In this document: one piece after another, positions 3,888 through 22,029 of the stretch
Layout: each line of letters opens with the position of its first letter
Numbering within the stretch: position 1 is the first letter of the stretch
Assembly: GCF_030406385.1 (NCBI RefSeq)
Contig: NZ_JAUEPM010000002.1
Location: forward strand, 186,001 to 250,000
Direction of reading: 5' to 3'
DNA length: 64,000 nucleotides
Origin: Microbacterium oryzae
GTDB lineage: Bacteria > Actinomycetota > Actinomycetes > Actinomycetales > Microbacteriaceae
Made by a program: the position numbers and the translations under genes
The notes under the pieces: generated by a model
What the model was told of the DNA's origin: nothing
Database searches by the model: none
Seen by the model: only the letters and a program-made list of their open reading frames with translations

Positions 3888-3919
3888 GAGGGCGCTCCTT
3901 CTCGGCCGTCGCTCGGCCT

Positions 3920-3931
3920 TTGTCGGGACAA
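3920..3931. promoter_or_regulatory. Candidate GntR operator at the gntR promoter
   Basis: TTGTCGGGACAA is a perfect inverted repeat (TTGTC/GACAA, two-base spacer), 33 bases upstream of the gntR start. It suggests autoregulation. A further half site, TTGTC, lies at 3950-3954. Confidence 0.6.
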
Positions 3932-3993
3932 CGTTACTAGGCGCAGTCTTTGTCATGTCGGATTTCCCCTTGCGCGACGACCTGCTTGTGATA

Positions 3994-4005
3994 TTGTCAT
4001 GACAT
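3994..4005. promoter_or_regulatory. Candidate GntR operator overlapping the iolC promoter
   Basis: TTGTCATGACAT contains the perfect 10-base palindrome TGTCATGACA (3995-4004). It overlaps a plausible -10 box (TATTGT, 3992-3997), which sits 16 bases after a -35-like TTGCGC (3970-3975). Binding here would block transcription of iolC and the genes after it. Confidence 0.6.
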
Positions 4006-4047
4006 AGACGAAAGCCGGGCGGAGCCGCCCAGTCAGGACAACGGAGC

Positions 4048-7606: not shown

Positions 7607-8509
7607 ATGACCGAACAGCGCTGGTTCCACACCCGGGGCGCACTCGCGCGCGACGGCTGGGAGACCGTCGTCGACGGGTCGATCGAGGGATGGGTCCACA
7701 CCGGACTGCGCGTCGCGCGGCTGGCGGCGGGGCAGGAGCTCTCGCTCGAAGCCGGCGTCGAGAAGCTCGTCGTGCCGCTGTCGGGCTCGTTCGCTCTCCG
7801 TGTCAGCGAGGGCGGGGCCGATGGCGAGATCGCCCTCGCCGGTCGTCCGTCGGTGTTCCACGGCCCGACCGACGTGGCGTACCTCTCCAGCGCGGCCACG
7901 GCCGTCCTCAGCGGCGAAGGCCGCGTGGCGGTGGCGACCTCGCCCACCGACGAGGTCTTCCCGACCCGCGTCATCCCGGCGGCGGACACTCCGGTCGAGC
8001 TGCGCGGCGCGGGGGCGTCGAGCCGGCAGGTGCACAACTTCGGCACGCCGCAGGCGCTCGACGCCGCCCGGTTCATCGTCTGCGAGGTGATCACCCCGGC
8101 GGAGAACTGGTCGTCGTACCCGCCGCACAAGCACGACGAGCACAAGCCAGGACACGAGTCGCGCCTCGAGGAGATCTACTACTTCGAGACCGCGCCGTCG
8201 CGCGTAGGCGGCGAGAAGGGCACGCAGCAGGCGTCCTTCGGCATGTTCAGCACGTACTCGTCGCCGGCGGGCGCGATCGACATCAACGCGCAGGTGCGCA
8301 CGGGCGATGTCGCCCTCGTCCCGTTCGGCTACCACGGCCCCGCTGTGGCGGCGCCCGGATACGACCTCTACTACCTCAACGTGATGGCGGGCCCCGATGC
8401 GGAGCGCGCCTGGCTCATCAGCGACGACCCCGGACACGCCTGGGTGCGCGAGACCTGGGAGGGCCAGGAGTTCGACTCCCGCCTCCCCTACGAGAACAAG
8501 GAAGGCTGA
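7607..8509 (+). CDS. iolB: 5-deoxy-glucuronate isomerase (IolB)
   Basis: A 300-residue cupin-type isomerase that turns 5-deoxy-glucuronate, the product of IolD, into 2-deoxy-5-keto-gluconate for IolC. The C-terminal domain carries the family motif with metal ligands: YPPHKHDEH, then LEEIYYFE, and later VPFGYHGPAVAAPGYDLYYL. Length fits the family (about 270-300). AAGGAG at 7591-7596 is well placed for the ATG at 7607. It lies after the intergenic inverted repeat and just before iolD. Confidence 0.92.
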   Translation: MTEQRWFHTRGALARDGWETVVDGSIEGWVHTGLRVARLAAGQELSLEAGVEKLVVPLSGSFALRVSEGGADGEIALAGRPSVFHGPTDVAYLSSAATAVLSGEGRVAVATSPTDEVFPTRVIPAADTPVELRGAGASSRQVHNFGTPQALDAARFIVCEVITPAENWSSYPPHKHDEHKPGHESRLEEIYYFETAPSRVGGEKGTQQASFGMFSTYSSPAGAIDINAQVRTGDVALVPFGYHGPAVAAPGYDLYYLNVMAGPDAERAWLISDDPGHAWVRETWEGQEFDSRLPYENKEG

Positions 8510-8512
8510 CCC

Positions 8513-10426
8513 ATGGGCGGCACCAAGCGGATGACCGTGAGCCAGGCGCTCGTCGAGTTCCTGGCGCATCAGTGGACGGTCGACGGCGATCACCGTGAGC
8601 GGACGATCCCCGGCGTCTTCGGCATCTTCGGACACGGCAACGTGGCCGGCGTCGGCCAGGCGCTCAAGCAGTTCAACCACGAGCAGCCAGAGCTCATGCC
8701 GTACTACCAGGCCCGCAACGAGCAGGCGATGGTGCACCAGGCCGTCGGCTACGCGCGCATGCACCGCCGCCTCGGTACCTACGCCGCCGCCGCGTCCGTC
8801 GGCCCTGGCGCCGCGAACATGCTCACCGGCGCAGCGCTCGCCACCGCCAACCGGCTGCCGGCGCTGCTGCTGCCGAGCGACACGTTCGCCACCCGCGTGG
8901 CCGACCCCGTGCTGCAGCAGCTCGAGCACCCGCACGACCTCGGCATCCAGGTGACCGACGCCTTCCGCCCGGTCTCGCGCTTCTTCGACCGCGTGCAGCG
9001 CCCCGAGCAGCTGTTCTCCATCGCGCTCGCCGCGATGCGCGTGCTCACCGACCCCGCGGAGACGGGCGCCGTGACGATCGCCCTCCCCGAGGATGTGCAG
9101 GCGGAGGCGCTCGACGTGCCGCTGGAGTTCCTGCAGGACCGCGAGTGGCGCATCCGACGGCCCCGGCCGGATCGCGACGCGTTCGCCCAGGCCGTGCGGG
9201 CCATCCGCGCCGCCAAGCGCCCCTTCCTCGTCGCCGGCGGCGGCGTGCTCTACTCCGAGGCGGAGCGGGAGCTGCGCGCGTTCGTCGAGGCCACGGGCAT
9301 CCCCGTGGGCACCTCGCAGGCCGGCGGCGGCGTGCTCAACTGGGACCACCCGCAGAACCTCGGTGGCGTCGGCGCGACCGGCACGCTCGCCGCCAACCGC
9401 CTCGCGGCGGAGGCCGACGTCGTGATCGGCATCGGCACGCGCTACAGCGACTTCACCACGGCATCGCGCACGGCGTTCCAGAACCCCGACGTGACGTTCG
9501 TCAACATCAACGTCGCGGCGTTCGACGCCTACAAGCACGGCACGCAGCTGCCCGTCATCGCCGACGCTCGCGAGGCGCTCGACGAGCTGATCGCCGCGCT
9601 GCCCGACCTCCGCGTCGACGGCGGCTACGCCGAGCGGATCGCCCGCGAGAAGGCGGAGTGGGACGCGACGGTCGACGAGGCGTTCGCGCCGTCCGGCCTC
9701 GCGCTGCCGGGTCAGCCCGAGATCATCGGCGCGGTGCAGGAGGCCAGCGACCCGCAGGACGTCGTGGTGCAGGCGGCCGGCTCGCTCCCCGGCGACCTCC
9801 ACAAGCTGTGGCGCGTCCGGGACCCGCTGGGCTACCACGTCGAGTACGCGTTCTCGTGCATGGGCTACGAGATCGCCGGCGGCATCGGCGTCAAGCGCGG
9901 CGCGGCCGAGTCCGGCTCCGAGCGCGACGTCATCGTCATGGTGGGCGACGGCTCGTACCTCATGCTCAACACCGAGCTCGTCACCGCCGTGGCTGAGGGC
10001 ATCAAGATCATCGTCGTCCTCATCCAGAACCACGGCTACGCCTCCATCGGGCATCTGTCCGAGACGGTCGGCTCCGAGCGCTTCGGCACGAAGTACCGCG
10101 CCTACGATCCGCAGGCGCGCAACTTCCAGGGCGAGGACGTGCTCCCCGTGGACCTCGCGATGAACGCGCGCAGCTACGGCCTCGATGTCATCGAGATCGA
10201 GCCGACCGAGTCGGCCGTCGACGACCTGCGCGCCGCGATGGCGCAGGCGAAGGCGTCCGACCGCTCCACGGTCATCCACATCAACAGCGATCCGCACATC
10301 TACGCTCCCGACGGAGCGGGGTGGTGGGACGTGCCGGTCGCTCAGGTGTCCACGCTCGACTCCACCCAGGACGCGCGCGCTGAGTACGAGGAGCAGGCGA
10401 AGCTGCAGAAGCCGCTCCTCGGCTGA
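8513..10426 (+). CDS. iolD: 3D-(3,5/4)-trihydroxycyclohexane-1,2-dione hydrolase (IolD)
   Basis: A 637-residue thiamine-diphosphate enzyme that opens the ring of trihydroxycyclohexanedione to give 5-deoxy-glucuronate. The cofactor-activating Glu is at residue 70 in YQARNEQAMVHQAVGYAR. The ThDP/Mg2+ motif starts at VGDGSYLMLNTEL (first Gly of GDG at 478) and ends with IQNHGYASIGHLS. The early GVFGIFGHGNVAG is typical of IolD. Only three bases separate it from iolB, and an AAGGAAGG-like site overlaps the iolB end. Length is normal for the family. Confidence 0.94.
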   Translation: MGGTKRMTVSQALVEFLAHQWTVDGDHRERTIPGVFGIFGHGNVAGVGQALKQFNHEQPELMPYYQARNEQAMVHQAVGYARMHRRLGTYAAAASVGPGAANMLTGAALATANRLPALLLPSDTFATRVADPVLQQLEHPHDLGIQVTDAFRPVSRFFDRVQRPEQLFSIALAAMRVLTDPAETGAVTIALPEDVQAEALDVPLEFLQDREWRIRRPRPDRDAFAQAVRAIRAAKRPFLVAGGGVLYSEAERELRAFVEATGIPVGTSQAGGGVLNWDHPQNLGGVGATGTLAANRLAAEADVVIGIGTRYSDFTTASRTAFQNPDVTFVNINVAAFDAYKHGTQLPVIADAREALDELIAALPDLRVDGGYAERIAREKAEWDATVDEAFAPSGLALPGQPEIIGAVQEASDPQDVVVQAAGSLPGDLHKLWRVRDPLGYHVEYAFSCMGYEIAGGIGVKRGAAESGSERDVIVMVGDGSYLMLNTELVTAVAEGIKIIVVLIQNHGYASIGHLSETVGSERFGTKYRAYDPQARNFQGEDVLPVDLAMNARSYGLDVIEIEPTESAVDDLRAAMAQAKASDRSTVIHINSDPHIYAPDGAGWWDVPVAQVSTLDSTQDARAEYEEQAKLQKPLLG

Positions 10427-10439
10427 ACTGCATGTATGT

Positions 10440-10451
10440 TTGTCAAGACAA
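10440..10451. promoter_or_regulatory. Candidate GntR operator before the iolE-like gene
   Basis: TTGTCAAGACAA is a perfect TTGTC/GACAA inverted repeat in the only sizeable gap between iolD and the next genes, 26 bases upstream of the ATG at 10477. A -10-like TATGTT (10434-10439) adjoins it. It implies an internal, repressible promoter. Confidence 0.6.
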
Positions 10452-10476
10452 TTAGTCGATCAATGAAGAGGACACG

Positions 10477-11382
10477 ATGAGCACCGGACTCCGCATCGGC
10501 ACCGCACCCGACTCGTGGGGTGTGTGGTACCCCGAGCACCCGCGCCAGATCCCCTGGGATCGCTTCCTGGACGAGGTCCAGAAGGCGGGCTACAACTGGA
10601 TCGAGCTGGGCCCGTACGGCTACCTGCCGACCGACCCGAACCAGCTGCAGGACGAGCTCGCCAAGCGCGACCTCAAGCTGTCGGCGGGCACCGTGTTCAC
10701 CGGGTTCCACAAGGGCGAGGAGCAGTGGCAGCGTGCCTGGGACCAGGCCGTCCAGGTCGCCGGTCTCGCGGCGGCCGTCGGCGCCGAGCACATCGTCGTC
10801 ATCCCCGACCTGTGGCGCTCCGACCTCACCGGCGAGGCGCTCGAGGCGCGCACCCTCGACGCCGAGCAGTGGGACAAGCTCGCCAAGGGCCAGGACCGGC
10901 TCGGCAAGGCGCTGCTGGAGGAGTACGGCGTCAAGCAGCAGTTCCATTCGCACGCCGACAGCCACGTCGGCACGCGGAGCGAGGTCGTGCGCCTGCTCGA
11001 GCTCACCGATCCGCGGTACCTCAACCTCTGCCTGGACACCGGCCACTACGCGTATTACGGCGGCGACAATCTGCGTCTCATCCAGGAGCACCCCGAGCGC
11101 ATCGGGTACCTGCACCTCAAGCAGATCGACCCCGAGTACCGCTTCGAGGTGCTGAAGAACGACATCCCGTTCGCGGACTCCGCGATCGACGTCATGGTGG
11201 AGCCGCCCGCCGGCATCCCCGAGTTCGGACCGATCATCGAGGCTGTCGCGGCCATCGACCCGGAGATCTTCGCGATCGTCGAGCAGGACATGCCCGGCGT
11301 CGACATCGACCTCCCGCTCGGCATCGCCACCCGCACCCGGCAGCACATCTTCGGCTGCACGTCCTTCGCACGCACCCGTTGA
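10477..11382 (+). CDS. IolE-like inosose dehydratase (TIM-barrel isomerase/epimerase family)
   Basis: A 301-residue AP endonuclease-2/xylose-isomerase-like TIM barrel. It opens with RIGTAPDSWGVWYPEHPRQI and carries QFHSHADSHVGT near residue 150 and CLDTGHYAYYGGD near residue 188, the usual metal-binding His, Asp and Glu surroundings. Every other inositol step has a gene here, so this is the best candidate for dehydration of 2-keto-myo-inositol to the dione used by IolD. Three TIM-barrel paralogues occur in the locus, so the assignment rests on similarity plus position. It has its own candidate operator and promoter upstream. Confidence 0.75.
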   Translation: MSTGLRIGTAPDSWGVWYPEHPRQIPWDRFLDEVQKAGYNWIELGPYGYLPTDPNQLQDELAKRDLKLSAGTVFTGFHKGEEQWQRAWDQAVQVAGLAAAVGAEHIVVIPDLWRSDLTGEALEARTLDAEQWDKLAKGQDRLGKALLEEYGVKQQFHSHADSHVGTRSEVVRLLELTDPRYLNLCLDTGHYAYYGGDNLRLIQEHPERIGYLHLKQIDPEYRFEVLKNDIPFADSAIDVMVEPPAGIPEFGPIIEAVAAIDPEIFAIVEQDMPGVDIDLPLGIATRTRQHIFGCTSFARTR

Positions 11383-11408
11383 CGCCCCCGTCAGAACCAG
11401 GAGACATC

Positions 11409-12422
11409 ATGAGCCAGGACCTCCGCATCGGCGTCGTCGGCGCCGGCATGATGGGCGCAGACCACATCGCCCGCATCACCCACCGCATCAGCGGCGCCTT
11501 CGTCTCGGCGATCATCGAGCCCGACGCCGCCCGCGCGGCGGCCGCTGCCGACAACGCTCCGGGCGCGCAGACGTTCTCGCGCATCGAGGACGCGATCGAG
11601 GCCGGCGCCGTCGACGCCGTGCTCATCGCCACGCCCGGTCAGTTCCACCAGCCCGTGCTCGAGCCCGCGCTCGCGGCTCGCCTGCCGATCCTGTGCGAGA
11701 AGCCGCTCACGCAGGATTCCGCGACGTCGGCGCAGATCCTCGAGATCGAGCAGAGGCTCGACCGCCCGCACATCCAGGTCGGCTTCATGCGCCGCTTCGA
11801 CGCCGAGTACGAGCAGCTCCGCCAGCTCATCGTCTCGGGTGAGGCCGGCGAGCTGCTCATGCTCCGCGGCGTGCACCGCAACCCGAGCGTGCCCGAGAGC
11901 TACGTGCAGAACATGCTCATCACGGACTCCGTCGTGCATGAGTTCGACGTCGTGCCGTGGCTCGCGGGCTCGCCCATCAAGACCGTCGAGGTCAAGTACC
12001 CGCGTCGCAACGACCTCTCGCCCGAGCGTCTGCGCGAGCCGATCCTCGTGCTCATGGAGCTCGAGAACGGCGTGCACGTCGACGTCGAGATGAACGTGAG
12101 CGTGCAGTTCGGCTACCAGGTCGGCACCGAGGCCGTGTTCCAGCAGGGCGTGGCCCGCATCGGCCAGCCGTCGGGGCTCCAGCTGTGGCAGGCCGGCCGC
12201 GTGTCGACGGCCGAGCACCAGAGCTTCACGACGCGCTTCGCCGCGGCCTACGACAACGAGATCCAGCGCTGGGTCGACGCCGTCCGTGATGGCCGTCTCG
12301 TCGACGGACCGAACGCATGGGACGGCTACCTCGTCGCCCTCGCGTGCGAGGCCGGCGTGCGCGCCCTCGACGGCGGCATCCACACGGTCGACGCCGCCGA
12401 GCGCCCCGCCTTCTACGCCTGA
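11409..12422 (+). CDS. iolG: Inositol 2-dehydrogenase (IolG, Gfo/Idh/MocA family)
   Basis: A 337-residue NAD-dependent dehydrogenase, first enzyme of the pathway (myo-inositol to 2-keto-myo-inositol). The N-terminal IGVVGAGMMGADHIARI is the Rossmann motif. CEKPLTQ gives the catalytic Lys at residue 98, and ITDSVVHEFDVVPWL gives Asp 173 and His 177, matching the spacing of Lys/Asp/His in Bacillus IolG. FMRRFDAEY is also conserved. Start at ATG 11409, with CAGGAG upstream. It follows the iolE-like gene by 26 bases. Confidence 0.9.
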   Translation: MSQDLRIGVVGAGMMGADHIARITHRISGAFVSAIIEPDAARAAAAADNAPGAQTFSRIEDAIEAGAVDAVLIATPGQFHQPVLEPALAARLPILCEKPLTQDSATSAQILEIEQRLDRPHIQVGFMRRFDAEYEQLRQLIVSGEAGELLMLRGVHRNPSVPESYVQNMLITDSVVHEFDVVPWLAGSPIKTVEVKYPRRNDLSPERLREPILVLMELENGVHVDVEMNVSVQFGYQVGTEAVFQQGVARIGQPSGLQLWQAGRVSTAEHQSFTTRFAAAYDNEIQRWVDAVRDGRLVDGPNAWDGYLVALACEAGVRALDGGIHTVDAAERPAFYA

Positions 12423-12457: not shown

Positions 12458-13324
12458 ATGGTGCGCATCGCCCTCGACCCCACGCCGTACAACGACTCCG
12501 TCCACCTGCTGGACTTTCCGGACCTCGTGGCCCGGCTGGGGTACGAGTACCTCCAGCTGACCCCGAACCCGGACTTCGGTCGCCACTTCCACCACCCCAA
12601 GGTGGACTCCGCGATGATCCGCACACTGCGCAAGCGCGCGTCGGACGCCGGCGTGACGATCACCTCGGTCCTGCCGGTGCAGCGGTTCTCGTGGCCGGAG
12701 GAGCCGCAGCGTGAGGCGGGCGTGCGCAACATGAAGCGGTACATCCGGGTGGCTGCCGAGCTCGGCGCTCCCGTGGTGAACACCGAGTTCTCCGGCCGTC
12801 CTGAACGCGAGGAGGACTCCGAGGCCGCGTTCTACCGGTCGATGGAGGAGCTCCTCCCCGTGCTCGAGCAGGAGGGCGTCACGCTCAACATCGACCCGCA
12901 CCCCGACGACTTCGTCGAGGACGGGCTCGAGGCGTGGCGCATCATCCGGGCGCTCGACACCCCGCGGGTGGGCTTCGTGTACGTCGCCGCGCACACCTTC
13001 CACTACGGGGACCGCGCGGCCACGCTGCTGCCGGAGGTGGGGGAGCGGCTGGGCGCCGTATACGCGGCCGACTCGTTCGACCACCACCGCTCGCACGGCC
13101 TGCGGTACATCTCCAACCCTCCCGGCAACGCGGCGCGGGTGCACCAGCACCTCAACATCGGCGACGGCGATGTGGACTGGTCGGAGCTGTTCGGCACCCT
13201 GAAGCAGATCGGCTACTTCGATCGCGAAGACGCCCTCATCGTGTCGAACGTGTTCGCCGAGGACGAGAACGCCGACGCATCGGCGCACCACCAGCTGCAG
13301 AGGCTGCGCGAGCTCGTCGGATGA
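12458..13324 (+). CDS. IolH-like sugar-phosphate isomerase/epimerase (TIM barrel)
   Basis: A 288-residue TIM-barrel protein starting VRIALDPTPYNDSVHLLDFP. LVARLGYEYLQLTPNPDF, NTEFSGRPEREEDSEAAFYR and TLNIDPHPDDFVEDGLEAWR resemble IolH, an inositol-operon protein without a firmly proven reaction. A metal-site His/Asp cluster occurs in AADSFDHHRSHGLRYISNPP. GAAGGAG at 12444-12450 supports the ATG at 12458; the frame is open upstream but overlaps iolG. Its stop overlaps the ATG of the SDR gene by four bases, so the two are translationally coupled. Confidence 0.75.
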   Translation: MVRIALDPTPYNDSVHLLDFPDLVARLGYEYLQLTPNPDFGRHFHHPKVDSAMIRTLRKRASDAGVTITSVLPVQRFSWPEEPQREAGVRNMKRYIRVAAELGAPVVNTEFSGRPEREEDSEAAFYRSMEELLPVLEQEGVTLNIDPHPDDFVEDGLEAWRIIRALDTPRVGFVYVAAHTFHYGDRAATLLPEVGERLGAVYAADSFDHHRSHGLRYISNPPGNAARVHQHLNIGDGDVDWSELFGTLKQIGYFDREDALIVSNVFAEDENADASAHHQLQRLRELVG

Positions 13325-14097
13325 CCTGGGCGCGCTACCCGTACGACGGCACCCGGGTGCTCGTCACGGGAGCGGGCACCGGGATCGGCGCGGCGATCGC
13401 ACGCGCGTTCCTCGAGCAGGGAGCGCGGGTGGCCCTCATCGGGCGTACCCGCGCGACCCTCGAGGAGACCGCGGCGGTCGCCCGTTCGCGCGCACTCGTG
13501 GTGGTGGCGGATGTCGCCACGCATGACGGCGTGTCGGACGCGGTCGCCGAGGTGCTCGCGACGTGGGGCGGCCTCGACGTGGTCGTCGCCAACGCCGGTC
13601 TCAGCGAGCACGGGGCCGTCTCCGACCTCGACGACGCGTCGTGGGAGCGCATGCGCTCGCTGAACCTCGACGGGACGCTGTTCCTCGCGCGGGCGAGCAT
13701 GCCGCACCTGCGTGACGCGCGCGGCACGTTCCTCGCCATCACGTCGATCGCGGGGCTCGGCGGCGACTGGGCGCAGCCCGGGTACAGCGCGACGAAGGCC
13801 GCCGTGAACGCGCTCGTGCAGACGATGGCGATCGACGAGGGCCGCTCCGGCGTCCGGGTCAACGCCATCGCACCCGGCTTCACACGCACTGCCCAGACGG
13901 CCGAGCGCCTGGACGATCCCCGCTTCCATGCGCGCCTCGTCGACCGGCTCGCGCTCGACCGCGCGGCGGAGCCCGCCGAGGTCGCCGCCGCCGCGCTGTT
14001 CCTCGCGAGCCCCGATGCGTCCTACATCACCGGGGTGATCCTCCCCGTCGACGGCGGCACCACCGCATCGATCGGGACGCCGCGCCCACCCGCCTGA
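13321..14097 (+). CDS. SDR-family oxidoreductase
   Basis: A 258-residue classical short-chain dehydrogenase. VLVTGAGTGIGAAIARAF is the NAD(P)-binding motif (residues 13-30), VVVANAG the NAG motif, and ITSIAGLGGDWAQPGYSATK the Ser-Tyr-Lys catalytic set. The C-terminus ASYITGVILPVDGG is the usual SDR end. It overlaps the IolH-like gene in an ATGA. The substrate is unknown; the locus suggests a polyol or inositol-derived ketone, perhaps interconversion of inositol stereoisomers together with the isomerases on either side. Confidence 0.8.
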   Translation: MTWARYPYDGTRVLVTGAGTGIGAAIARAFLEQGARVALIGRTRATLEETAAVARSRALVVVADVATHDGVSDAVAEVLATWGGLDVVVANAGLSEHGAVSDLDDASWERMRSLNLDGTLFLARASMPHLRDARGTFLAITSIAGLGGDWAQPGYSATKAAVNALVQTMAIDEGRSGVRVNAIAPGFTRTAQTAERLDDPRFHARLVDRLALDRAAEPAEVAAAALFLASPDASYITGVILPVDGGTTASIGTPRPPA

Positions 14098-14126
14098 CCA
14101 GACTCGAACACGACGAAGGACCATCC

Positions 14127-15011
14127 ATGACCAAGCTCTCCATGAACGTCACGACGACCTTTTACGGCAACGTCGTCAACGACATCGCCGTCGCGAAGGC
14201 CGCCGGATACGGGGGCATCGAGCTGCAGAGCCCGAAGCTGTACCGCTATCTCGACGCGGGGTACGCCGTGGACACGCTGCCGCCGCTGCTCGACGGGCTC
14301 GAGGTGACCGGCATCGGCGCGGTCCTCGACCTCGAGCGGCAGGGCGACGCGCGTGCCGACTTCCTCGCCGAGGTCGAGCGGATGGCCGACATCGCCGTGG
14401 TCGTGGGAGCGCCGATCCTGCAGCTGTGCACGGGACCCGTGGACTGGGAGGTCGTGAAGGACTTCCGCGCGGGGCGGCTCACCGCAGAGGACCTGCGTTA
14501 CCGCGGCACGCTGGGCCTGTCGGAGAGCGACGCCCTGGACGCGGCGGCGTCGAACGTGCGCGAGGCCGCCGACATCGTCGCCGACCGCGGGCTGGACCTC
14601 TACCTCGAGCCGCTGGCGTGGTCGAACCTCAACCGGCACCGCCACTCGCTGGAGATCATCGAGCGGGCGGGCCGCGACAACGTCGGCATCGCGCTCGACA
14701 CGTGGCACTACTGGACGACGGGCGACACGCTCGAGGAGGTCGCCGCGACGCCGAAGGAGCTCATCAAGGCCGCGCACATCTCGGATGGGCTGAGCCTCGA
14801 TCGCGAGAGGGACGTCCCGGATCAGAGTGTGCACCGCAATGTGATGATCGGCGGCGGGGCCATCCCGCTGCAGGAGTGGGTCGACGCGATCAAGTCGACC
14901 GGCTACGACGGATGGTGGGTATCGGAGATGTTCTCCGACAAGGCCAACGAGCACGACTTCCTCGAGGTGGCCACGACCATCCGCGGCCTGCTCCACATCC
15001 TCGTCTCCTGA
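14127..15011 (+). CDS. Sugar phosphate isomerase/epimerase (TIM barrel), IolI/IolE-like
   Basis: A 294-residue TIM barrel of the xylose-isomerase-like superfamily. Metal-site motifs are LYLEPLAWSNLNRHRHSLEI, VGIALDTWHYWTTGD and WWVSEMFSDKANEHDF. It could interconvert inososes (IolI role) or be a second dehydratase acting on another inositol isomer. It lies between the SDR and a second Gfo/Idh gene, which together look like a side branch of the inositol pathway. ATG 14127 follows GAAGGA at 14115-14120. Function assigned at superfamily level only. Confidence 0.7.
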   Translation: MTKLSMNVTTTFYGNVVNDIAVAKAAGYGGIELQSPKLYRYLDAGYAVDTLPPLLDGLEVTGIGAVLDLERQGDARADFLAEVERMADIAVVVGAPILQLCTGPVDWEVVKDFRAGRLTAEDLRYRGTLGLSESDALDAAASNVREAADIVADRGLDLYLEPLAWSNLNRHRHSLEIIERAGRDNVGIALDTWHYWTTGDTLEEVAATPKELIKAAHISDGLSLDRERDVPDQSVHRNVMIGGGAIPLQEWVDAIKSTGYDGWWVSEMFSDKANEHDFLEVATTIRGLLHILVS

Positions 15012-15022
15012 GAGGCTCGACC

Positions 15023-16024
15023 ATGCAGCGCTTCGCCCTCATCGGCGCCGGATTCATCGGGTCGGTCCACGCCCAGAGCCTCGCCGCCCATCCGGATGTC
15101 GACTTCCGGTTCGTCTACGACGTCGACTTCGGCCGCGCCGAGGCACTCGCCGCGCGGCATGGCGCTCGTGCCGCCCGCACGATCGCCGACGCCTTCGACC
15201 CCGCTCAGGTGGACGCGGTCTTCATCGCGTCCTCCACCGACACGCACGCGGAGAACCTGCGTCGCGCCGCGGATGCGGGCCTCGCCGCGCTCGTGGAGAA
15301 GCCCATCGACCTCGACCTCGCTCGCGCGGCGGAGACCGTCGCGTATGTCGAGCGGGCGGGCATCCCCGTCATGGTCGACTTCAACCGGCGCTTCGACCGC
15401 GATCACGCCGAGCTCAAGCGCCTCGTCGACGAGGGGGAGGTGGGCGAGGTCGCGCTCGTGCAGCTCACCTCGCGCGGGCCCGCGCTGCCGCCTTTGGACT
15501 ACCTCAAGGTCTCCGGCGGACAGATGCGCGACCAGACCGTGCACTTCTTCGACCTCGCGCGGTGGATCAGCGGGCTCGACCCTGTCGAGGTCTTCGTCGC
15601 GGGATCGGCGCTCGCCGACCCGCGCGTGGCGGAGATCGGCGACGTCGACACGTCGGCCGCCACCCTGCGGCTCTCGAGCGGCGCGCTCGTGCAGATCGAC
15701 AGCGTGCGGCACACCGGCTACGGATACGACGAGCGCATCGAGGTGCTGGGCTCCGCGGGGATGGCCGAATCCGGCCGTATGCGCGCGGGCGGCGTCACGC
15801 GCTTCCGGGGCGCGCACGCGACATCGGACGGTCTGCACGCGGGGTGGTTCGAGCGCGTGCAGCCGACGTACGCCGCCGCGCTGGGCGCGTTCGTGTCGGC
15901 GCTGGAGACGTCGGGGCCCATGCCCGCGACGCTGCGCGACGGGCTCGCGGCGCAGGCCGTCGCCGAGGCCGCAGCGCGCTCGCTCGTCACCGGCCGCGCG
16001 GAGCCCATCGACCTCGCGCTCTGA
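15023..16024 (+). CDS. Second Gfo/Idh/MocA dehydrogenase, inositol-dehydrogenase-like
   Basis: A 333-residue NAD(P)-dependent dehydrogenase. FALIGAGFIGSVHAQSLAAH is the Rossmann motif, VEKPIDLD gives Lys 93, and MRDQTVHFFDLARWI gives Asp 170 and His 174, so the inositol dehydrogenase catalytic triad is intact. It is clearly diverged from the IolG at 11409, so a different substrate is likely, such as scyllo- or D-chiro-inositol or an inosose. It is the last gene of the rightward operon and ends at a long hairpin shared with the convergent ABC transporter genes. Confidence 0.8.
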   Translation: MQRFALIGAGFIGSVHAQSLAAHPDVDFRFVYDVDFGRAEALAARHGARAARTIADAFDPAQVDAVFIASSTDTHAENLRRAADAGLAALVEKPIDLDLARAAETVAYVERAGIPVMVDFNRRFDRDHAELKRLVDEGEVGEVALVQLTSRGPALPPLDYLKVSGGQMRDQTVHFFDLARWISGLDPVEVFVAGSALADPRVAEIGDVDTSAATLRLSSGALVQIDSVRHTGYGYDERIEVLGSAGMAESGRMRAGGVTRFRGAHATSDGLHAGWFERVQPTYAAALGAFVSALETSGPMPATLRDGLAAQAVAEAAARSLVTGRAEPIDLAL

Positions 16025-16080: not shown

Positions 16081-16935
16081 TCAGCGACGACGACGGGGAG
16101 CGGTGTTCTCCTCGACCGTGCGGATGGCCTCGGTGCGGCCGCCGAACTCCTTGAGCTCGTGGCTGAGCTCGGCGAGCTCGTCGCCGCCCGCCATCTGCCG
16201 CGTGAGCTCGTCGAGGGTGACCTCGTCGCGCGTGCGGTCGAGGACCGCCTGCCCGAGCTTGAGGATGACGAAGTGGTCGCCGACGAGGTAGGCGTGGTGC
16301 GGATTGTGGGTGATGAAGACCACGCCGAGACCCGCGTCGCGCGCCGCGGCGACGTACTTCAGCACGACGCCCGACTGCTTGACGCCGAGGGCGGCCGTCG
16401 GCTCGTCGAGGATGAGCACCTTCGCTCCGAAGTACACGGCACGCGCGATCGCCACGCACTGGCGCTGTCCGCCCGAGAGCGTGCCGATCGGCTGGTCGAG
16501 GTCCTTCACGACGATGCCCATCTTGCGCAGCTCGGCGTCCGCGATGGCCTTCATGTCGCGGATGCGCATGCCGGCCAGCGGGAACTTCGACCCGACGAGC
16601 TCCGAGCCGAGGAAGAAGTTCCGCCACACCTCCATGAGGCCCACGACGGCGAGGTCCTGATACACCGTCGCGATGCCCTGCGCGAGCGCTTCGCGGGGCG
16701 AGCTGAACGAGGCCTCCTCGCCGTTCACGATCAGGCGCCCCTCCGTGTGCGGGTGGAGGCCGGCCATGATCTTGATGAGCGTGGACTTGCCGGCGCCGTT
16801 GTCGCCGAGCACGCAGGCGACCTCGCCCGCGTTGACCGTCAGGTTGATGCCCTTGAGCGCGCGGATGGCGCCGTAGCTCTTCCCGACGTCCTGCATCTGG
16901 ATGAGCGGCTTGTGGGTCTGCAGAGTCTCCGACAT
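16081..16935 (-). CDS. Sugar ABC transporter ATP-binding protein (CUT2, single domain)
   Basis: A 284-residue ATPase for a ribose/inositol-type (CUT2) importer. Walker A is GDNGAGKST at residues 44-52, the signature is TLSGGQRQCVAIARAV, Walker B is VLILDEPTAAL, and the switch His lies in FITHNPHHAYLVG. Classical RbsA/MglA proteins have two ATPase halves in about 500 residues; this one has a single half, as in the FrcA type. It is the last gene of the leftward operon, with five bases between it and the permease gene. The ribosome site is weak, so coupling to permease translation is likely. Confidence 0.88.
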   Translation of the reverse strand: MSETLQTHKPLIQMQDVGKSYGAIRALKGINLTVNAGEVACVLGDNGAGKSTLIKIMAGLHPHTEGRLIVNGEEASFSSPREALAQGIATVYQDLAVVGLMEVWRNFFLGSELVGSKFPLAGMRIRDMKAIADAELRKMGIVVKDLDQPIGTLSGGQRQCVAIARAVYFGAKVLILDEPTAALGVKQSGVVLKYVAAARDAGLGVVFITHNPHHAYLVGDHFVILKLGQAVLDRTRDEVTLDELTRQMAGGDELAELSHELKEFGGRTEAIRTVEENTAPRRRR

Positions 16936-16940
16936 GGCGA

Positions 16941-18005
16941 TCAGCCCACCTTCCTGGTCGTGGAGAGCTTCTTGACGTAGAGGTTCACGAGCACGGCGAG
17001 CACGAGCATGACGCCGAGGAACGCGCGGAACCAGTTCGGGTCCCACCCGGCGTAGACGATGCCGAGAGAGGTCATGCCGAAGATGAAGGCGCCGATCGCG
17101 ACGCCGATCGCGTTGCCGAAGCCGCCGGTGAGGAGCGTGCCGCCCACCACCGCGGCGATGATGTAGAGGAACTCGTTGCCCACGCCGTTTCCCGCCTGCA
17201 GCGTGTTGAAGCGGTAGAGCGTGTGCATGCCGACGAACCAGCCGAGGAACGACACCGTGATGAACAGGCCGATCTTCACGCGGACGACGGGAACGCCGAC
17301 AGCGCGGGCGGAGGCGTCGTTGCCGCCGACGGCGTAGATCCAGTTGCCGATGCGGGTGCGCTGCAGGACCCACGCGGCCAGGGCCACGAGGACGAGCCAG
17401 TAGATGACGCTGTTCCAGATGGTGACGCCGCCGATGCGGAACGATCCGGCGAAGACGGCGTGCATGATGCCGTAGCCGTCCATCTGCGAGATGTTCGGGC
17501 TCGCCACCGCGCCGGTCACGAGCTTCGTCACGCCGAGGTTGACACCCTGCAGGATGAAGAACGAGCCGAGCGTGATGAGGAAGCTGGGGATGCCCGTGCG
17601 CATCACCAGGTAGCCGTTGACGAAGCCGACCACGAGGCAGAAGACGAGCGACACGATCGCGCCGACGATGAGGTTGATGCCGAGGTAGTACGAGAAGAGG
17701 GCGTTGAAGAGCCCGGCGCTCGTGACGATGACGCCGGCGGAGAGGTCGAACTCGCCGCCGATCATCAGCAGCCCCACTGCGACGGCGACGATGCCGATCG
17801 TGGAGGCCTGGTACAGCACGGTGAAGAGCGCGTCGGGCGACCGGAACGATGGCGCCACGACGAGGAAGAAGATGAAGATGAGCACGGCGGCGACGGCCGC
17901 GCCGACCTCCGGACGCGCGAGCAGGCGGTTGGACCAGCCGAGCTTCACGCGGTTCGAGGACTCATGCGGCGCGCTGACCGGCGCCTGCGTGGTGGCCTGA
18001 CTCAT
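16941..18005 (-). CDS. Sugar ABC transporter permease (CUT2, RbsC/FrcC-like)
   Basis: A 354-residue membrane protein with about nine to ten hydrophobic helices. GIVAVAVGLLMIGGEFDLSA and GIPSFLITLGSFFILQGVN are typical of branched-chain/CUT2 permeases, and GGTLLTGGFGNAIGVAIGAF is the conserved C-terminal segment. It forms the membrane channel of the importer with its neighbours. ATG at 18005, preceded by AGGAG. Position beside the inositol enzymes suggests inositol as substrate. Confidence 0.9.
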   Translation of the reverse strand: MSQATTQAPVSAPHESSNRVKLGWSNRLLARPEVGAAVAAVLIFIFFLVVAPSFRSPDALFTVLYQASTIGIVAVAVGLLMIGGEFDLSAGVIVTSAGLFNALFSYYLGINLIVGAIVSLVFCLVVGFVNGYLVMRTGIPSFLITLGSFFILQGVNLGVTKLVTGAVASPNISQMDGYGIMHAVFAGSFRIGGVTIWNSVIYWLVLVALAAWVLQRTRIGNWIYAVGGNDASARAVGVPVVRVKIGLFITVSFLGWFVGMHTLYRFNTLQAGNGVGNEFLYIIAAVVGGTLLTGGFGNAIGVAIGAFIFGMTSLGIVYAGWDPNWFRAFLGVMLVLAVLVNLYVKKLSTTRKVG

Positions 18006-18034
18006 GAGGAACTCCTAAGGGTAGGGGCGACGGC

Positions 18035-18064
18035 GAGCGGGGGCGCCCGAAGGCGTCCCCGCTC
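18035..18064 (-). other. Intra-operon hairpin between binding-protein and permease genes
   Basis: GAGCGGGGGCGCC and GGCGTCCCCGCTC form a 13-bp stem (one G-T step) around a CGAA loop, directly after the binding-protein stop. Such hairpins often protect the binding-protein mRNA and lower permease expression. Confidence 0.55.
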
Positions 18065-18077
18065 GTCCGGCGAGAGA

Positions 18078-19067
18078 TCAGCGCGTGTTGTTCTGAGCGA
18101 ACGGGAGGATGACGTCGATGTTCGACTGGTCGACGAACGAGGGGCCGGTGAGGACGGGCTGGCCGCCGCCGATGTCGTTGCCGTTCTTCAGGTTCAGGTA
18201 GAGCGACGTGACCGCGAGGTAGCCCTGCATGTAGGGCTGCTGGTCGATCGAGAACTCGATCTCGCCGTCCTTGATCGCCTGAGCGGCGTCGGCGTTGAGG
18301 TCGAAGGTGATGAGCTTCGCCTCGCTGCCCGACTGCTCCATCGCGTCGAGCGCGTCCATCGCGATGGGGGCGCCGAGCGTGACGATGTAGTCGATCGACG
18401 GGTCCTGCTGCAGCTTCGCCTGGAGGCTGGCGACGACCGCGGAGTCGTCAGCGCCGTTCACCTGGATGTTCTCGGTGGCGGGCACCGCTTCCTTCACTCC
18501 CGCGCAGCGCGCCTCGAGGGCGACCGAGCCGGCGGCCTGGATCACGCAGAGCGGGTGCTCGCCGCCGTCCTCGGCGATCCGCTCACCGGCGGTGTGGCCG
18601 GCGAGGTTCTCGTCCGAGCCGAAGTACATCAGCGCGCCGAGATCCTGGTACTGGTCGATTCCGGAGTTGAAGCCGACGATCGGGATGCCCGCCTCACCCG
18701 CCGCCGCGACCGACGACGCCAGCGCGTCGGGGGTGGCGAGGGTGGTGGCGATGCCGTCGACGTTCGAGTCGATCGCGGTCTGGATCAGCTGCGCCTGCTT
18801 GTCGGCGGCGGGGTCGTTCGAGTACTGCAGCTTCGCGCCGGTGTCCTTCGCGGCCTGCTCGGCACCCGCGCGGATCTTGTCCCAGAACGTGTCGCCGGGC
18901 GTCTCGTGGGTGACCATGGCGATGGTGTAGCCCGAGTCGCCGCCGCCGCCACCGGAGTCGTCTCCGCCGGACTCCGGCTGTGCGCCGCCGCCGCTGCAGG
19001 CCGTGAGGGCGAACACGGCGACCAGTGCGCCGGCGCCGAGGATCTTTCGGGGGGTGATGAGCCTCAT
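18078..19067 (-). CDS. Sugar ABC transporter substrate-binding lipoprotein (CUT2, inositol-type)
   Basis: A 329-residue periplasmic-binding-protein-like lipoprotein. A basic start and hydrophobic stretch end in the lipobox LTAC with Cys 24, followed by a Gly/Ser-rich linker. The mature part starts YTIAMVTHETPGDTFWDKIR and carries QAQLIQTAIDSNVDGIATTL and ITFDLNADAAQAIKDGEIEF, typical of type-I sugar-binding proteins. It should capture inositol or a related polyol outside the membrane. First gene of the leftward operon; candidate operators lie at 19178-19197. Confidence 0.9.
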   Translation of the reverse strand: MRLITPRKILGAGALVAVFALTACSGGGAQPESGGDDSGGGGGDSGYTIAMVTHETPGDTFWDKIRAGAEQAAKDTGAKLQYSNDPAADKQAQLIQTAIDSNVDGIATTLATPDALASSVAAAGEAGIPIVGFNSGIDQYQDLGALMYFGSDENLAGHTAGERIAEDGGEHPLCVIQAAGSVALEARCAGVKEAVPATENIQVNGADDSAVVASLQAKLQQDPSIDYIVTLGAPIAMDALDAMEQSGSEAKLITFDLNADAAQAIKDGEIEFSIDQQPYMQGYLAVTSLYLNLKNGNDIGGGQPVLTGPSFVDQSNIDVILPFAQNNTR

Positions 19068-19177
19068 GGTGGTCCTTCCAGGGATACGTCGAGGGCAGCT
19101 TCGCCCTGCGACCGACCGTCACCGCTTCGACGCGGTGGAGATAAGAGTGAGGGCAAGCCCAACGCGCTGTCAAATTT

Positions 19178-19197
19178 TTGTCTTGACATTGTGTCAA
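19178..19197. promoter_or_regulatory. Candidate GntR operator in the divergent transporter promoter
   Basis: TTGTCTTGACAT (19178-19189) matches the local TTGTC-NN-GACAA motif with one mismatch. It overlaps a second palindrome, TTGACA-TTG-TGTCAA (19183-19197), which also contains a -35-like TTGACA. The site lies between the ABC and MFS inositol transporter genes, so it may control one or both. Confidence 0.5.
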
Positions 19198-19334: not shown

Positions 19335-20789
19335 ATGGCAAGTGCACACTCGGAGGGCTCGAGTACGAGCCTTCCTCCGCTCACCGGAGGACCGCATCGC
19401 AAGCGGCTGGGGCTTGTCGCCCTCATCGCCACCTTCGGCGGCCTGCTCTTCGGCTACGACACCGGCGTGATCAACGGGGCACTGGTTCCGATGTCGGAGG
19501 AGCTCGGGCTCAACGCCTTCACCGAAGGCGTCGCGACCAGCTCGCTCATCTTCGCCGCCGCGATCGGCGCGATGTTCGGCGGTCGGCTGTCGGATGGCTG
19601 GGGCCGCCGGAAGACGATCATCCTGCTGGCGGTGCTCTTCTTCGTCGGCACGCTGTTCGTCGTCTTCACGCCGAACCTCGCCGTTCTGGTCGTCGGTCGC
19701 GTGATCCTCGGCCTCGCGGTCGGCGGCGCGTCCACCGTCGTACCGGTCTTCCTCGCCGAGCTCGCGCCGTACGAGATCCGCGGCTCGCTCGCCGGCCGCA
19801 ACGAGCTCATGATCGTGACCGGTCAGCTGGCCGCGTTCATCATCAACGCCGTCATCGGCAATCTCTACGCCGGCGCCGACCATGTCTGGCGCATCATGTT
19901 CGCCATCTGCGCCATCCCGGCCATCGCGCTCTTCTTCGGCATGCTGCGCATGCCCGAGTCCCCGCGCTGGCTGCTGGAGAAGGGCCGCAACGCCGACGCG
20001 CTGGCCGTGCTCAAGACCGTGCGCTCCGAGGACCGCGCGAAGGCCGAGGTCGCCGATCTCGAGCGGATCGCCGCCGAGGAGAGGGCGGAGGGCCAGCTCG
20101 GCTGGCGCGCCATCCTCAGCAACAAGAACCTCTCGCGCATCCTGCTCGTCGGAATCGGGCTCGGCGTCGCGCAGCAGCTCACCGGCATCAACTCGATCAT
20201 GTACTTCGGCAACACCGTGCTCACCGAGTCGGGGTTCGAGCAGGGCGCGGCGCTCATCGCCAACATCGCCCCGGGCGTCATCGCGGTCGTCGGCGGCATC
20301 ATCGCCCTCGCCATGATGGACCGGCTCGACCGTCGGAAGACGTTCGCGATCGGCCTCACGCTCACCACGTCGTGCCACCTGCTCATCGGCGTCGCCTCGA
20401 TGGTCCTGCCCGCCGGCAACCCGCTCCGCCCCTGGGTGATCCTCTTCCTCGTGGTGGCGTTCGTCGGCTCGATGCAGACGTTCCTCAACATCGCGGTGTG
20501 GGTCTACCTGTCGGAGATCTTCCCGCTGCACATGCGCGGCGTCGGCATGGGCATCTCGGTGTTCATGCTGTGGATCGTCAACGGCTTCCTGTCGCTGTAC
20601 TTCCTCTCGCTCGTGGACGCGGTCGGCATCACCGGCACGTTCTTCCTCTTCGCCGCAGTCGGCGCGCTCGCGCTCATCTTCGTCATCACTCAGGTGCCGG
20701 AGACTCGCGGGCGCACCCTCGAGGCGCTCGAGGAGGATGTCACCACCGGCGCCATCTACACGGTGCGCGGGCGCTCGCCGCGTCGCTGA
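19335..20789 (+). CDS. Sugar/inositol MFS symporter (IolT-like)
   Basis: A 484-residue member of the sugar porter family with 12 predicted helices. GGLLFGYDTGVINGALVPM in helix 1 and DGWGRRKTI after helix 2 are family signatures. PESPRWLLEKGR follows helix 6, QQLTGINSIMYFG marks helix 7, and the C-terminus has PETRGRTLEALEED. The closest family idea is the proton-coupled myo-inositol transporter IolT. AAGGAG at 19324-19329 fixes the start. It is divergent from the ABC importer, so the locus has two uptake routes, probably a high-affinity ATP-driven one and a secondary one. Confidence 0.87.
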   Translation: MASAHSEGSSTSLPPLTGGPHRKRLGLVALIATFGGLLFGYDTGVINGALVPMSEELGLNAFTEGVATSSLIFAAAIGAMFGGRLSDGWGRRKTIILLAVLFFVGTLFVVFTPNLAVLVVGRVILGLAVGGASTVVPVFLAELAPYEIRGSLAGRNELMIVTGQLAAFIINAVIGNLYAGADHVWRIMFAICAIPAIALFFGMLRMPESPRWLLEKGRNADALAVLKTVRSEDRAKAEVADLERIAAEERAEGQLGWRAILSNKNLSRILLVGIGLGVAQQLTGINSIMYFGNTVLTESGFEQGAALIANIAPGVIAVVGGIIALAMMDRLDRRKTFAIGLTLTTSCHLLIGVASMVLPAGNPLRPWVILFLVVAFVGSMQTFLNIAVWVYLSEIFPLHMRGVGMGISVFMLWIVNGFLSLYFLSLVDAVGITGTFFLFAAVGALALIFVITQVPETRGRTLEALEEDVTTGAIYTVRGRSPRR

Positions 20790-20796
20790 CGCTCGC

Positions 20797-20838
20797 AGCA
20801 GAAGGGGCCCGGTCCGCGCGGATCGGGCCCCTTCTGCT
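20797..20838 (+). terminator. Terminator hairpin after the MFS symporter
   Basis: AGCAGAAGGGGCCCGGTCC pairs with GGATCGGGCCCCTTCTGCT (19 bp, one G-U) around GCGC. It begins eight bases after the stop at 20789. There is no T-run. Confidence 0.75.
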
Positions 20839-21010
20839 GTGCTCAGCGGGTGATGGAGCGCCGCTCGGCGTCGGCCGTCGCGCCGCGTGTCAGCTCGCGG
20901 CGAGGCGCCAGGGTGTCTTCCGCCCCGACTCCATGCGGTCAGCGCTTGACCGGACCGAGAAGCGCATGACAGAATGTCCTTACAAATAAACTCTTCGTCA
21001 GGAGCTCGCC

Positions 21011-21406
21011 ATGCCCCTCGTCCGCATCGACCACAGCGACGCCCGCACGAATCCCACGGAGATCGCCACGGCCATCCATGACGCGATCGTGTCGGTCTAC
21101 GGCATCCCCGAGCGCGACCGCTTCCAGGTGATCACGTCGCGCCCCGCCACCACGATCATCGCCGAGGACGCCGGCCTCGGCTTCGAACGCACCGACCCGG
21201 TGATCATCCAGATCTTCACGCAGCGCGGCCGTGCGACCGAGCAGAAGCAGCGCCTGTACGCCGCCATCGCCGACGCGCTGGAGCCGGTCGGGGTCGCCCC
21301 GCAGGACGTCTTCATCGGCTACGTCGAGAACGGCGCCGAGGACTGGAGCTTCGGGTTCGGGCGCGCGCAGTATCTGACGGGGGAGCTCGCCGTCCCCGGC
21401 GCATGA
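21011..21406 (+). CDS. Tautomerase-superfamily protein, malonate-semialdehyde-decarboxylase-like
   Basis: A 131-residue tautomerase protein. After Met removal Pro becomes the N-terminal base (PLVRIDHSDARTNP). Numbering from that Pro, Asp 35 (in PERDRFQ), Arg 71 and Arg 73 (in TQRGRATEQKQR) line up with Asp 37, Arg 73 and Arg 75 that I recall for malonate semialdehyde decarboxylase. The C-terminal EDWSFGFGRAQYLTGEL is also characteristic of that group. It lies just outside the inositol locus, whose aldolase yields malonate semialdehyde, so it may decarboxylate excess product to acetaldehyde. Family placement is good; the physiological role is inference. Confidence 0.75.
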   Translation: MPLVRIDHSDARTNPTEIATAIHDAIVSVYGIPERDRFQVITSRPATTIIAEDAGLGFERTDPVIIQIFTQRGRATEQKQRLYAAIADALEPVGVAPQDVFIGYVENGAEDWSFGFGRAQYLTGELAVPGA

Positions 21407-21459
21407 TCGCCGCTCGCCCCGCGCTCGGCCGCGCCGCTAGTGTGGATGGGGGAGGTGCG

Positions 21460-22029
21460 GTGGGACGGAACGCCGATGCGATCGAGGAGGGTCTCGCGAT
21501 CGCGCATGCCGCCGCGCGACTCGCGGTGAAGAACAGGATCCTCGTCAGCACGATCTCGCTGGACGAGGCGTTCGACGCGTCCCACTTCCTTCCCGCGGCT
21601 CGTGAGGCGATCGCCTCGCTCGCGGATGAGTCGGAGCAGGCTGCGGAGGAGATCTCACGCCTGCGCAAGGCGGCCTGGGGTCGGCACACGCAGTCCCGCG
21701 GCACGCACGACTACCGCGATCGAGACGTGCGCAATCTCCGCCGTCGCGCCAAGCAGTACGTCGGGGTTGCGAAGGCGCTGCGCGCGGAGCTCGAGGATGA
21801 GGCGCATCTCCTCGCACTTGTCGAGCAGTCGCGCGAGGCGGCGTGGGGCGACATCGCCTCCACCCTCGACAACCGGCTCCGCGTCGAAGCCATGCGGCCT
21901 GACCAGGACCCCAACTACGCCTCGATGCGGGAGGCGCGGATGCAGGCGCTGCGCCTCGTGGACCTGCAGAAGCTCGCAGTCGAGACCAAGGAGCGCCGCA
22001 GCGAGACCGAGCCCGCTGACGCCGACTGA
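21460..22029 (+). CDS. Conserved Microbacteriaceae protein of unknown function
   Basis: A 189-residue charged, mainly helical protein beginning MGRNADAIEEGLAIAHAAAR, with DYRDRDVRNLRRRAKQYVGV in the middle and a Glu/Lys-rich tail. No catalytic motif or membrane segment is evident; a coiled-coil-like fold is likely. The GTG at 21460 is preferred because GGGGGAGG precedes it closely. An upstream ATG at 21403 overlaps the tautomerase stop and would add 19 low-complexity residues. I recall related proteins carrying the label asparagine synthase, which nothing here supports. Confidence 0.65.
   Translation: MGRNADAIEEGLAIAHAAARLAVKNRILVSTISLDEAFDASHFLPAAREAIASLADESEQAAEEISRLRKAAWGRHTQSRGTHDYRDRDVRNLRRRAKQYVGVAKALRAELEDEAHLLALVEQSREAAWGDIASTLDNRLRVEAMRPDQDPNYASMREARMQALRLVDLQKLAVETKERRSETEPADAD

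Follow-up and report, generated by a model that had tools for sequence, protein, structure and literature searches.

The stretch of Microbacterium oryzae DNA analysed here (64,000 nucleotides, hereafter the window) carries a gene of the malonate semialdehyde decarboxylase (MSAD) group next to a set of genes for inositol breakdown, which raises the question of what an enzyme of this type does in such a setting. The best-known setting of MSADs, according to the relevant passages of PMC10606566, is the breakdown of the man-made compound 1,3-dichloropropene. The conserved membership of such genes in the Micrococcales inositol regulon points to a substrate that occurs in nature, to a regulator and to conditions of growth under which the enzymes can be studied. 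Taking all the evidence together, we consider it highly probable that the product of the window gene is a malonate semialdehyde decarboxylase of the FG41 type and that the gene belongs to the inositol regulon. The reaction that the enzyme very probably catalyses yields acetaldehyde from malonate semialdehyde, a reactive compound that arises when inositol is broken down.

Family, fold and active site of the tautomerase

The gene (21011-21406, plus strand) starts with ATG and encodes a protein of 131 amino acids that matched the Pfam family PF14552 (Tautomerase_2) with 87.6 bits (cut-off 28), the sole match to this family in the genome (3.09 Mb, 99.99% complete). The sequence-only reading had assigned the product to the MSAD group on the basis of an N-terminal Pro, an Asp, two Arg residues and a C-terminal WSFGFG block; all these residues are present, and the family match agrees with the assignment. 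In a sequence search of the PDB, the FG41 MSAD (3mjz) came first (152 bits, E 5.8e-44), and the MSAD of P. pavonaceae (2aag) gave 90 bits. An AlphaFold model of the monomer, based on 32 sequences, had a mean pLDDT of 83.3, with low confidence at residues 51-60 and 111-131. The leading structures in a Foldseek search with this model were 3mjz, which ranked first (TM 0.81, 57% identity), 3mlc and 2aag, the latter as the fourth hit, and the modelled beta-alpha-beta fold resembles that of the solved MSADs.

For the P. pavonaceae enzyme, the sections of PMC10606566 dealing with the active site list Pro1, Asp37, Arg73/Arg75, Trp114, Phe116, Phe123 and Leu128; the FG41 MSAD signature given there is Thr72, Gln73, Arg76 and Tyr123. 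The equivalents of the former in the window ORF are P2, D36, W112, F114 and L126 (ORF numbering), with the Arg73/Arg75 pair aligned with R72 and R74, and the FG41 signature is present in full as T70, Q71, R74 and Y121. Residues T70, Q71, G73, R74 and Y121 were invariant across 32 aligned rows. Position R72 was variable, being occupied by R, A, G or E among iol-linked relatives, with T as a further residue when the FG41-type rows are considered. In the 13 orthologues found in Microbacterium, the Pro (P2), Asp36, Arg72/Arg74 and the DWSFGFG block were invariant, except for F116, replaced by Tyr in one of them. The alignment indicates that the predicted active site is of the FG41 type and retains the Arg pair. 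Altogether, family, fold and site residues identify the window protein as a member of the PF14552 MSAD group.

The inositol gene set and its predicted operator

The adjoining inositol pathway, also recognised in the sequence-only reading, is real: the window contains iolC-J-A-B-D-E-G-H from position 4048, followed by an ABC transporter and a sugar porter. A GntR regulator of the HutC/UTRA type, the probable iol repressor (3129-3959, minus strand, start provisional; UTRA 132.9 bits, GntR 50.6 bits), precedes a series of plus-strand genes. These comprise iolC, for 5-dehydro-2-deoxygluconokinase (4048-4998; 68% to the annotated IolC of Clavibacter pCI3); a DeoC-like aldolase gene here called iolJ (5000-5905; 71% to a gene of the pCI3 iol locus annotated as deoxyribose-phosphate aldolase), whose product would presumably release malonate semialdehyde; iolA, for the CoA-acylating (methyl)malonate-semialdehyde dehydrogenase (5938-7446; TIGR01722 659.3 bits, cut-off 448.5); iolB (7607-8509; 67% to the annotated IolB of pCI3); iolD (8513-10426; 81% to the annotated IolD of pCI3), which served as the IolD probe; and iolE and iolG1 (10477-12422; ORFs and homology). 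Further along the same strand lie an iolH-like gene, an SDR gene, an iolI-like TIM-barrel gene (AP_endonuc_2) and a second Gfo/Idh/MocA-type dehydrogenase gene (12458-16024), named from Pfam in the case of the iolI-like ORF and by eye and homology for the others. The minus strand encodes an ABC sugar transporter of the inositol type (16084-19067), with permease and binding protein recognised by Pfam (BPD_transp_2 and Peripla_BP_4, respectively) and the ATPase by eye; the binding protein also resembles the rhizopine-binding family, with a score below the cut-off. The sugar porter (19335-20789, plus strand; Sugar_tr 339.9 bits; TIGR00879 331, cut-off 237.8) is a probable inositol transporter (iolT). 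The extra isomerase-like and dehydrogenase genes, together with the ABC transporter, suggest the use of other inositol isomers or derivatives.

On the other side of the MSAD gene, positions 21403-22029 contain a 208-aa ORF, the start of which may be GTG 21460, with no family match in Pfam or NCBIfam. Among the mapped Microbacterium genomes and the named loci, this ORF adjoins the MSAD gene only in close relatives (G032, G038/L042 and L050). No acetaldehyde-using gene was recognised among the genes flanking MSAD in the window (sugar porter, unmatched ORF and an amino-acid carrier). An ExaC-type acetaldehyde dehydrogenase is encoded elsewhere in the genome (930 bits, cut-off 900), and a genome search run with no positive control gave no match for AdhE.

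The sugar-porter and MSAD genes are separated by a strong hairpin (20790-20848, plus strand; -53.4 kcal/mol, z -7.8) that is terminator-like but lacks a T run, no T-tailed terminator being found. Given this hairpin, the MSAD gene probably forms a transcription unit of its own in this genome. Its promoter-like site (20946-20975, plus strand), a consensus match only, consists of -35 TTGACC, an 18-nt spacer and -10 CAGAAT preceded by TG; one such site was found, in comparison with 0.1 expected in shuffles. A probable iol operator, TGTC-CT-TACA (TGTCCTTACA, 20975-20984, plus strand), starts on the final base of the -10 element and corresponds to the palindrome TGTC-N2-GACA with one base changed. 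The sequence-only reading had seen in this promoter an everted motif, GACA-GAA-TGTC, echoing the local operator half sites. The motif exists (20968-20978, plus strand), overlapping the -10 element and the first operator half, but its register was misread, and the element that is conserved is TGTC-N2-GACA. The everted form GACA-N3-TGTC was found in 5 of 81 MSAD upstream regions (three at the position seen in the window and two elsewhere, the left half not being conserved), whereas 55 of these 81 had TGTC-N2-GACA with at most one mismatch, and the everted operator was dropped.

The conserved palindrome has the consensus TGTcAgGACAAA and lies 32-38 bp 5' of the start codon in many loci. In 85 MSAD upstream regions of 150 bp (L083, with 99 bp of upstream sequence, was excluded from the operator counts), it was exact in 25 and had at most one mismatch in 55. 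In the control, 300 random draws of segments from the same loci, coding DNA included, the exact form gave a mean of 0.6 (maximum 3) and the form with at most one mismatch a mean of 3.5 (maximum 10). The site was absent from 30 of the 85 upstream regions, a lack partly explained by genes located within operons, and the upstream scan found none in the five relatives unlinked to iol genes. Within the window, iol operator-like palindromes are present in the gntR-iolC region (TGTCGGGACA, 3919-3932, palindrome at 3921-3930), upstream of iolC (TGTCATGACA, 3993-4006, palindrome at 3995-4004), between iolD and iolE (TGTCAAGACA, 10439-10452, palindrome at 10441-10450) and between the divergent ABC-transporter and iolT genes (TGTCTTGACA, 19177-19188, palindrome at 19179-19188). 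These four are the only exact copies of TGTC-N2-GACA in the whole window, where 0.89 would be expected; 3 of 100 shuffles reached this count. Since the palindrome is common to the MSAD promoter and to iolC, iolE and iolT/ABC, the MSAD gene appears to be part of the iol regulon by virtue of a shared predicted operator. The protein that binds it would be the GntR/UTRA regulator encoded beside iolC; the IolR protein of C. glutamicum reportedly binds a similar motif. A full-text literature search for the motif string found no paper.

On this basis, the following scheme can be proposed. Inositol would be processed by IolG, IolE, IolD, IolB and IolC, and the DeoC-like aldolase would then release malonate semialdehyde, which IolA would convert with CoA and NAD into acetyl-CoA. 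The MSAD branch would convert the same compound into acetaldehyde and CO2, Pro1 acting as general acid and Arg74 and Asp36 holding the substrate, so that inositol carbon would be freed as acetaldehyde with no CoA or NAD used. Transcription would be controlled by the UTRA-type GntR repressor, bound to TGTC-N2-GACA over the promoter and released when an inositol intermediate accumulates, and the acetaldehyde could become acetate through the ExaC-type dehydrogenase encoded elsewhere in the genome. The likely use of the branch would be overflow or detoxification.

Linkage to inositol loci and alternative explanations

A sample of 198 Microbacterium genomes, drawn evenly from a larger group, gave 28 matches in the MSAD search, corresponding to the 13 orthologues (75-100% identity) and 15 distant homologues (at most 45%). 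Of the 198 genomes, 49 had an IolD match; in two of them (G033 and G068) the identity was only about 50%, and these were not scored as IolD-positive in the Fisher test, leaving 47. All 13 orthologue genomes were IolD-positive, in comparison with 34 of the 185 others (Fisher p 1.8e-9, a value to be taken only as a guide because the genomes are related). In 12 of the 13 genomes, the orthologue was separated from iolD by 0.1-22 kb on a single contig, and in the other (G019) the two were on different contigs. As a control, IolD was found in 2 of the 15 genomes with distant homologues, on other contigs. The maps placed the MSAD gene about 110 bp after the iolD match in G153, about 37 bp after an iolT-like match in G059, and after iolH, iolG or iolT in other Microbacterium genomes.

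IolA was present in all 13 orthologue genomes, which indicates that MSAD is a side branch and not a replacement for this enzyme. Two Pseudoclavibacter genomes (G595 and G597) with IolD and MSAD seemed to be devoid of IolA, but this candidate case of replacement was rejected as an assembly gap, since their contigs stop about 100 bp inside iolA and a third genome of the genus (G594, loci L145/L146) has two iolA copies that are 95% identical. The duplicate iolA probably breaks the assemblies of related genomes, mimicking iolA loss. A Gulosibacter iol locus lacking iolA (L062) was discarded as well, a 70% identical IolA homologue being located on another contig.

Beyond the genus, named genomes were scanned with the 13-row alignment, a query chosen by sequence and not by linkage, and the best 80 of 96 relatives were considered. 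Among these 80, 69 are in or close to an iol locus, and the gene order varies. Of the 69, 53 contain two or more of iolB, C, D, E and J in the flank (maximum 10 kb per side), six more have iolB as the sole one of these five genes (five Rothia and one Nesterenkonia), and ten more have iolD on the same contig at about 10-22 kb. Six relatives (L046, L049, L056, L083, L094 and L109) were unassignable, owing to short or separate contigs or to a genome outside the search, and five (L106, L108, L117, L119 and L121) were unlinked. These counts overstate independence because of the kinship of the loci, 28 of the 80 being from Curtobacterium. The order is iolT-MSAD-iolC in Zhihengliuella and MSAD-iolC-J-D-A in Paeniglutamicibacter. 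A class-wide search yielded 16 matches in 394 genomes, and linkage was checked for 14 of them (13 stretches of about 20 kb plus the window); four were linked (G000, G199, G471 and G422), all in the taxonomic order of the window, and outside this order none of the ten class-wide matches was linked. A survey of co-occurrence with iol loci had been named in the sequence-only reading, for which the lack of any association with inositol or beta-alanine catabolism was the adverse outcome; the reverse was found, a strong iol association both in the genus and among the best 80 relatives.

Relatives outside iol loci are informative on the substrate of MSAD, the substrates of the neighbouring enzymes being putative. 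In Pseudoclavibacter L119 and L121, a class-III aminotransferase gene is located immediately upstream of an FG41-type MSAD gene (L119:8512-10405 and L121:8232-10405); in L119, the upstream region also includes a more distant PucR regulator gene. The aminotransferase scored above the cut-off of NF004718, an unnamed NCBIfam family. The class-III family includes beta-alanine transaminases, and the pair is a candidate beta-alanine-type catabolic unit. In Cryobacterium algoricola (L106:8321-13263), iolA lies directly upstream of the MSAD gene, with a convergent AdhE gene downstream (1362 bits, cut-off 951), and IolD had no match in the genome; in L108, an AdhE gene lies 5.5 kb from the MSAD gene. 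In addition, a nitronate monooxygenase gene abuts or overlaps the MSAD-group gene in four loci treated as mycobacterial-type (L160:9710-11076 in G263, and likewise L161-L163), and one lies 1.4 kb from the MSAD-group gene of M. wolinskyi (L117/L155). The monooxygenase was identified in L160 by Pfam (PF03060) and in L161-L163 by 72-83% identity, with nothing above the cut-off in NCBIfam. The degradation of 3-nitropropionate proceeds via propionate-3-nitronate to malonic semialdehyde, according to PMC4777734, and the pair is a candidate module leading from 3-nitropropionate through malonate semialdehyde to acetaldehyde.

These contexts bear on the alternative that survives best, namely that the protein is a pathway tautomerase or hydratase for an inositol intermediate, such as the diketo product of IolE, with decarboxylation as a side activity. 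An enzyme of this kind would show the same iol linkage, and the tautomerase superfamily is described in parts of PMC5818174 as promiscuous, an unknown share of each subgroup perhaps not catalysing the reaction of the founder. On the other hand, the unlinked relatives adjoin candidate makers of malonate semialdehyde or users of acetaldehyde (class-III aminotransferase, nitronate monooxygenase, IolA and AdhE), with no inositol intermediate in common. Furthermore, the orthologue is missing from 34 of the 47 IolD-positive Microbacterium genomes, which argues that no essential step relies on MSAD, and we regard this alternative as unlikely. It is very improbable that the neighbourhood represents old synteny with no function: a strong hairpin does precede the window gene, which has a promoter-like site to itself, and many of the loci are related, but the pairing persists while gene order varies widely, the operator recurs at -32 to -38 in many loci, and tree tests (p 0.024 and 0.004) favour separate entry into iol loci. 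The hardest to credit is a xenobiotic enzyme from the end of a 3-chloroacrylate/1,3-dichloropropene path that lies beside iol genes by chance, for which FG41 MSAD as closest solved relative would speak and against which stand the iol linkage of 69 of the best 80 relatives in varied orders and the iol-type operator. The preferred reading is that of a malonate semialdehyde decarboxylase serving the inositol regulon.

Probable separate recruitment into inositol loci and comparison with known systems

Phylogenetic relationships were examined in a careful tree of 59 rows, from which 64 of the 123 rows of a quick tree were left out, including the ten most distant; L081 (a duplicate), L123 (same genome as L117) and L140 were omitted. 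The window protein fell in a 42-row clade with FG41 MSAD (support 100/97) and in a 39-row clade (95/82), and a lactobacillal MSAD-group protein was placed together with the P. pavonaceae enzyme. L127, the iol-linked gene of G422, clustered with L133-L135, of which the two examined were both unlinked. AU tests rejected a single clade of actinobacterial and lactobacillal iol-linked genes (p 0.024, with L. salivarius, a long branch, standing in for L. casei) and a single clade of the actinobacterial type and L127 (p 0.004); both tests constrained the whole derived clade, which was picked after the tree, and involve long branches, L137 among them. The label-change count was 5, with L135 provisionally taken as unlinked and L046 and L094 as linked, and this count is given no weight as evidence here. 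The separate tree positions of the lactobacillal, G422 and window types make separate recruitments of MSAD-group genes into iol sets likely. The G422 gene, with its different rooting, adjoins iolC in its iol locus (L159).

Many actinobacteria of soils and plants apparently have an MSAD gene among their inositol genes, and it seems to have joined them separately from the lactobacillal one. The idea of an MSAD branch in inositol breakdown is already known, with a precedent in the IolK protein of Lactobacillus. As far as our literature search shows, the conserved actinobacterial case, its predicted operator and the signs of separate recruitment are new; this search, which covered few subscription papers, found no description of an MSAD gene in actinobacterial iol loci. 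In the main text of PMC9430895, a 2022 survey of iol clusters, a word search found tautomerase, decarboxylase and iolK absent, and the branch may thus be overlooked in pathway reconstructions. We lean, with confidence only a little better than even, towards a broader view of MSAD-group enzymes as plug-in consumers of malonate semialdehyde. Taken as one joint claim, this view holds that they were recruited at least three times into inositol operons (the FG41 type in Micrococcales, the P. pavonaceae type in lactobacilli and a third type in G422), that the MSADs beside class-III aminotransferases and nitronate monooxygenases are further cases, and that the haloacrylate-degrading MSADs are late offshoots of this natural role.

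Among known systems, the MSAD of coryneform bacterium FG41 (3mjz; 57% identity in the structural match) shares with the window protein the T-Q-x-G-R and Tyr signature, Pro1, the Asp, the Trp and the Phe, and differs from it in having Ala at the place of Arg72. This enzyme was studied for haloacrylate breakdown; unlike it, the window gene sits in an iol regulon. The founder of the group, P. pavonaceae 170 MSAD (2aag), has Pro1, Asp37, Arg73, Arg75, Trp114, Phe116 and Leu128 in common with the window protein, but the two are only 36-37% identical and belong to separate clades, and the founder has Phe instead of Tyr at 123 and a one-residue-fewer difference before the Arg pair. IolA/MmsA consumes the same intermediate within the same gene set, but it belongs to the aldehyde dehydrogenase family and yields acetyl-CoA, not acetaldehyde.

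Like the window gene, the lactobacillal iolK belongs to the MSAD group and is part of an iol locus or regulon. In the iol operon of L. casei BL23, it was reportedly proposed by Yebra et al. in 2007 to give malonate semialdehyde a second outlet in addition to IolA. On a plasmid of Ligilactobacillus salivarius, iolA-B-C-D-G-G-E are present, and a gene of the MSAD group lies further along. This lactobacillal type (44% identity, S-R-K-R) goes with P. pavonaceae MSAD, unlike the window protein, and the regulator gene beside the lactobacillal iol operon is of the DeoR type, in contrast with the GntR/UTRA regulator of the window. IolK is named in a passage of PMC10606566 and placed in the L. casei operon in a section of PMC2530867. 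A shared iol-linked ancestor of both genes was not supported (AU p 0.024), and we therefore do not file the window gene as an IolK orthologue, although it would work like IolK.
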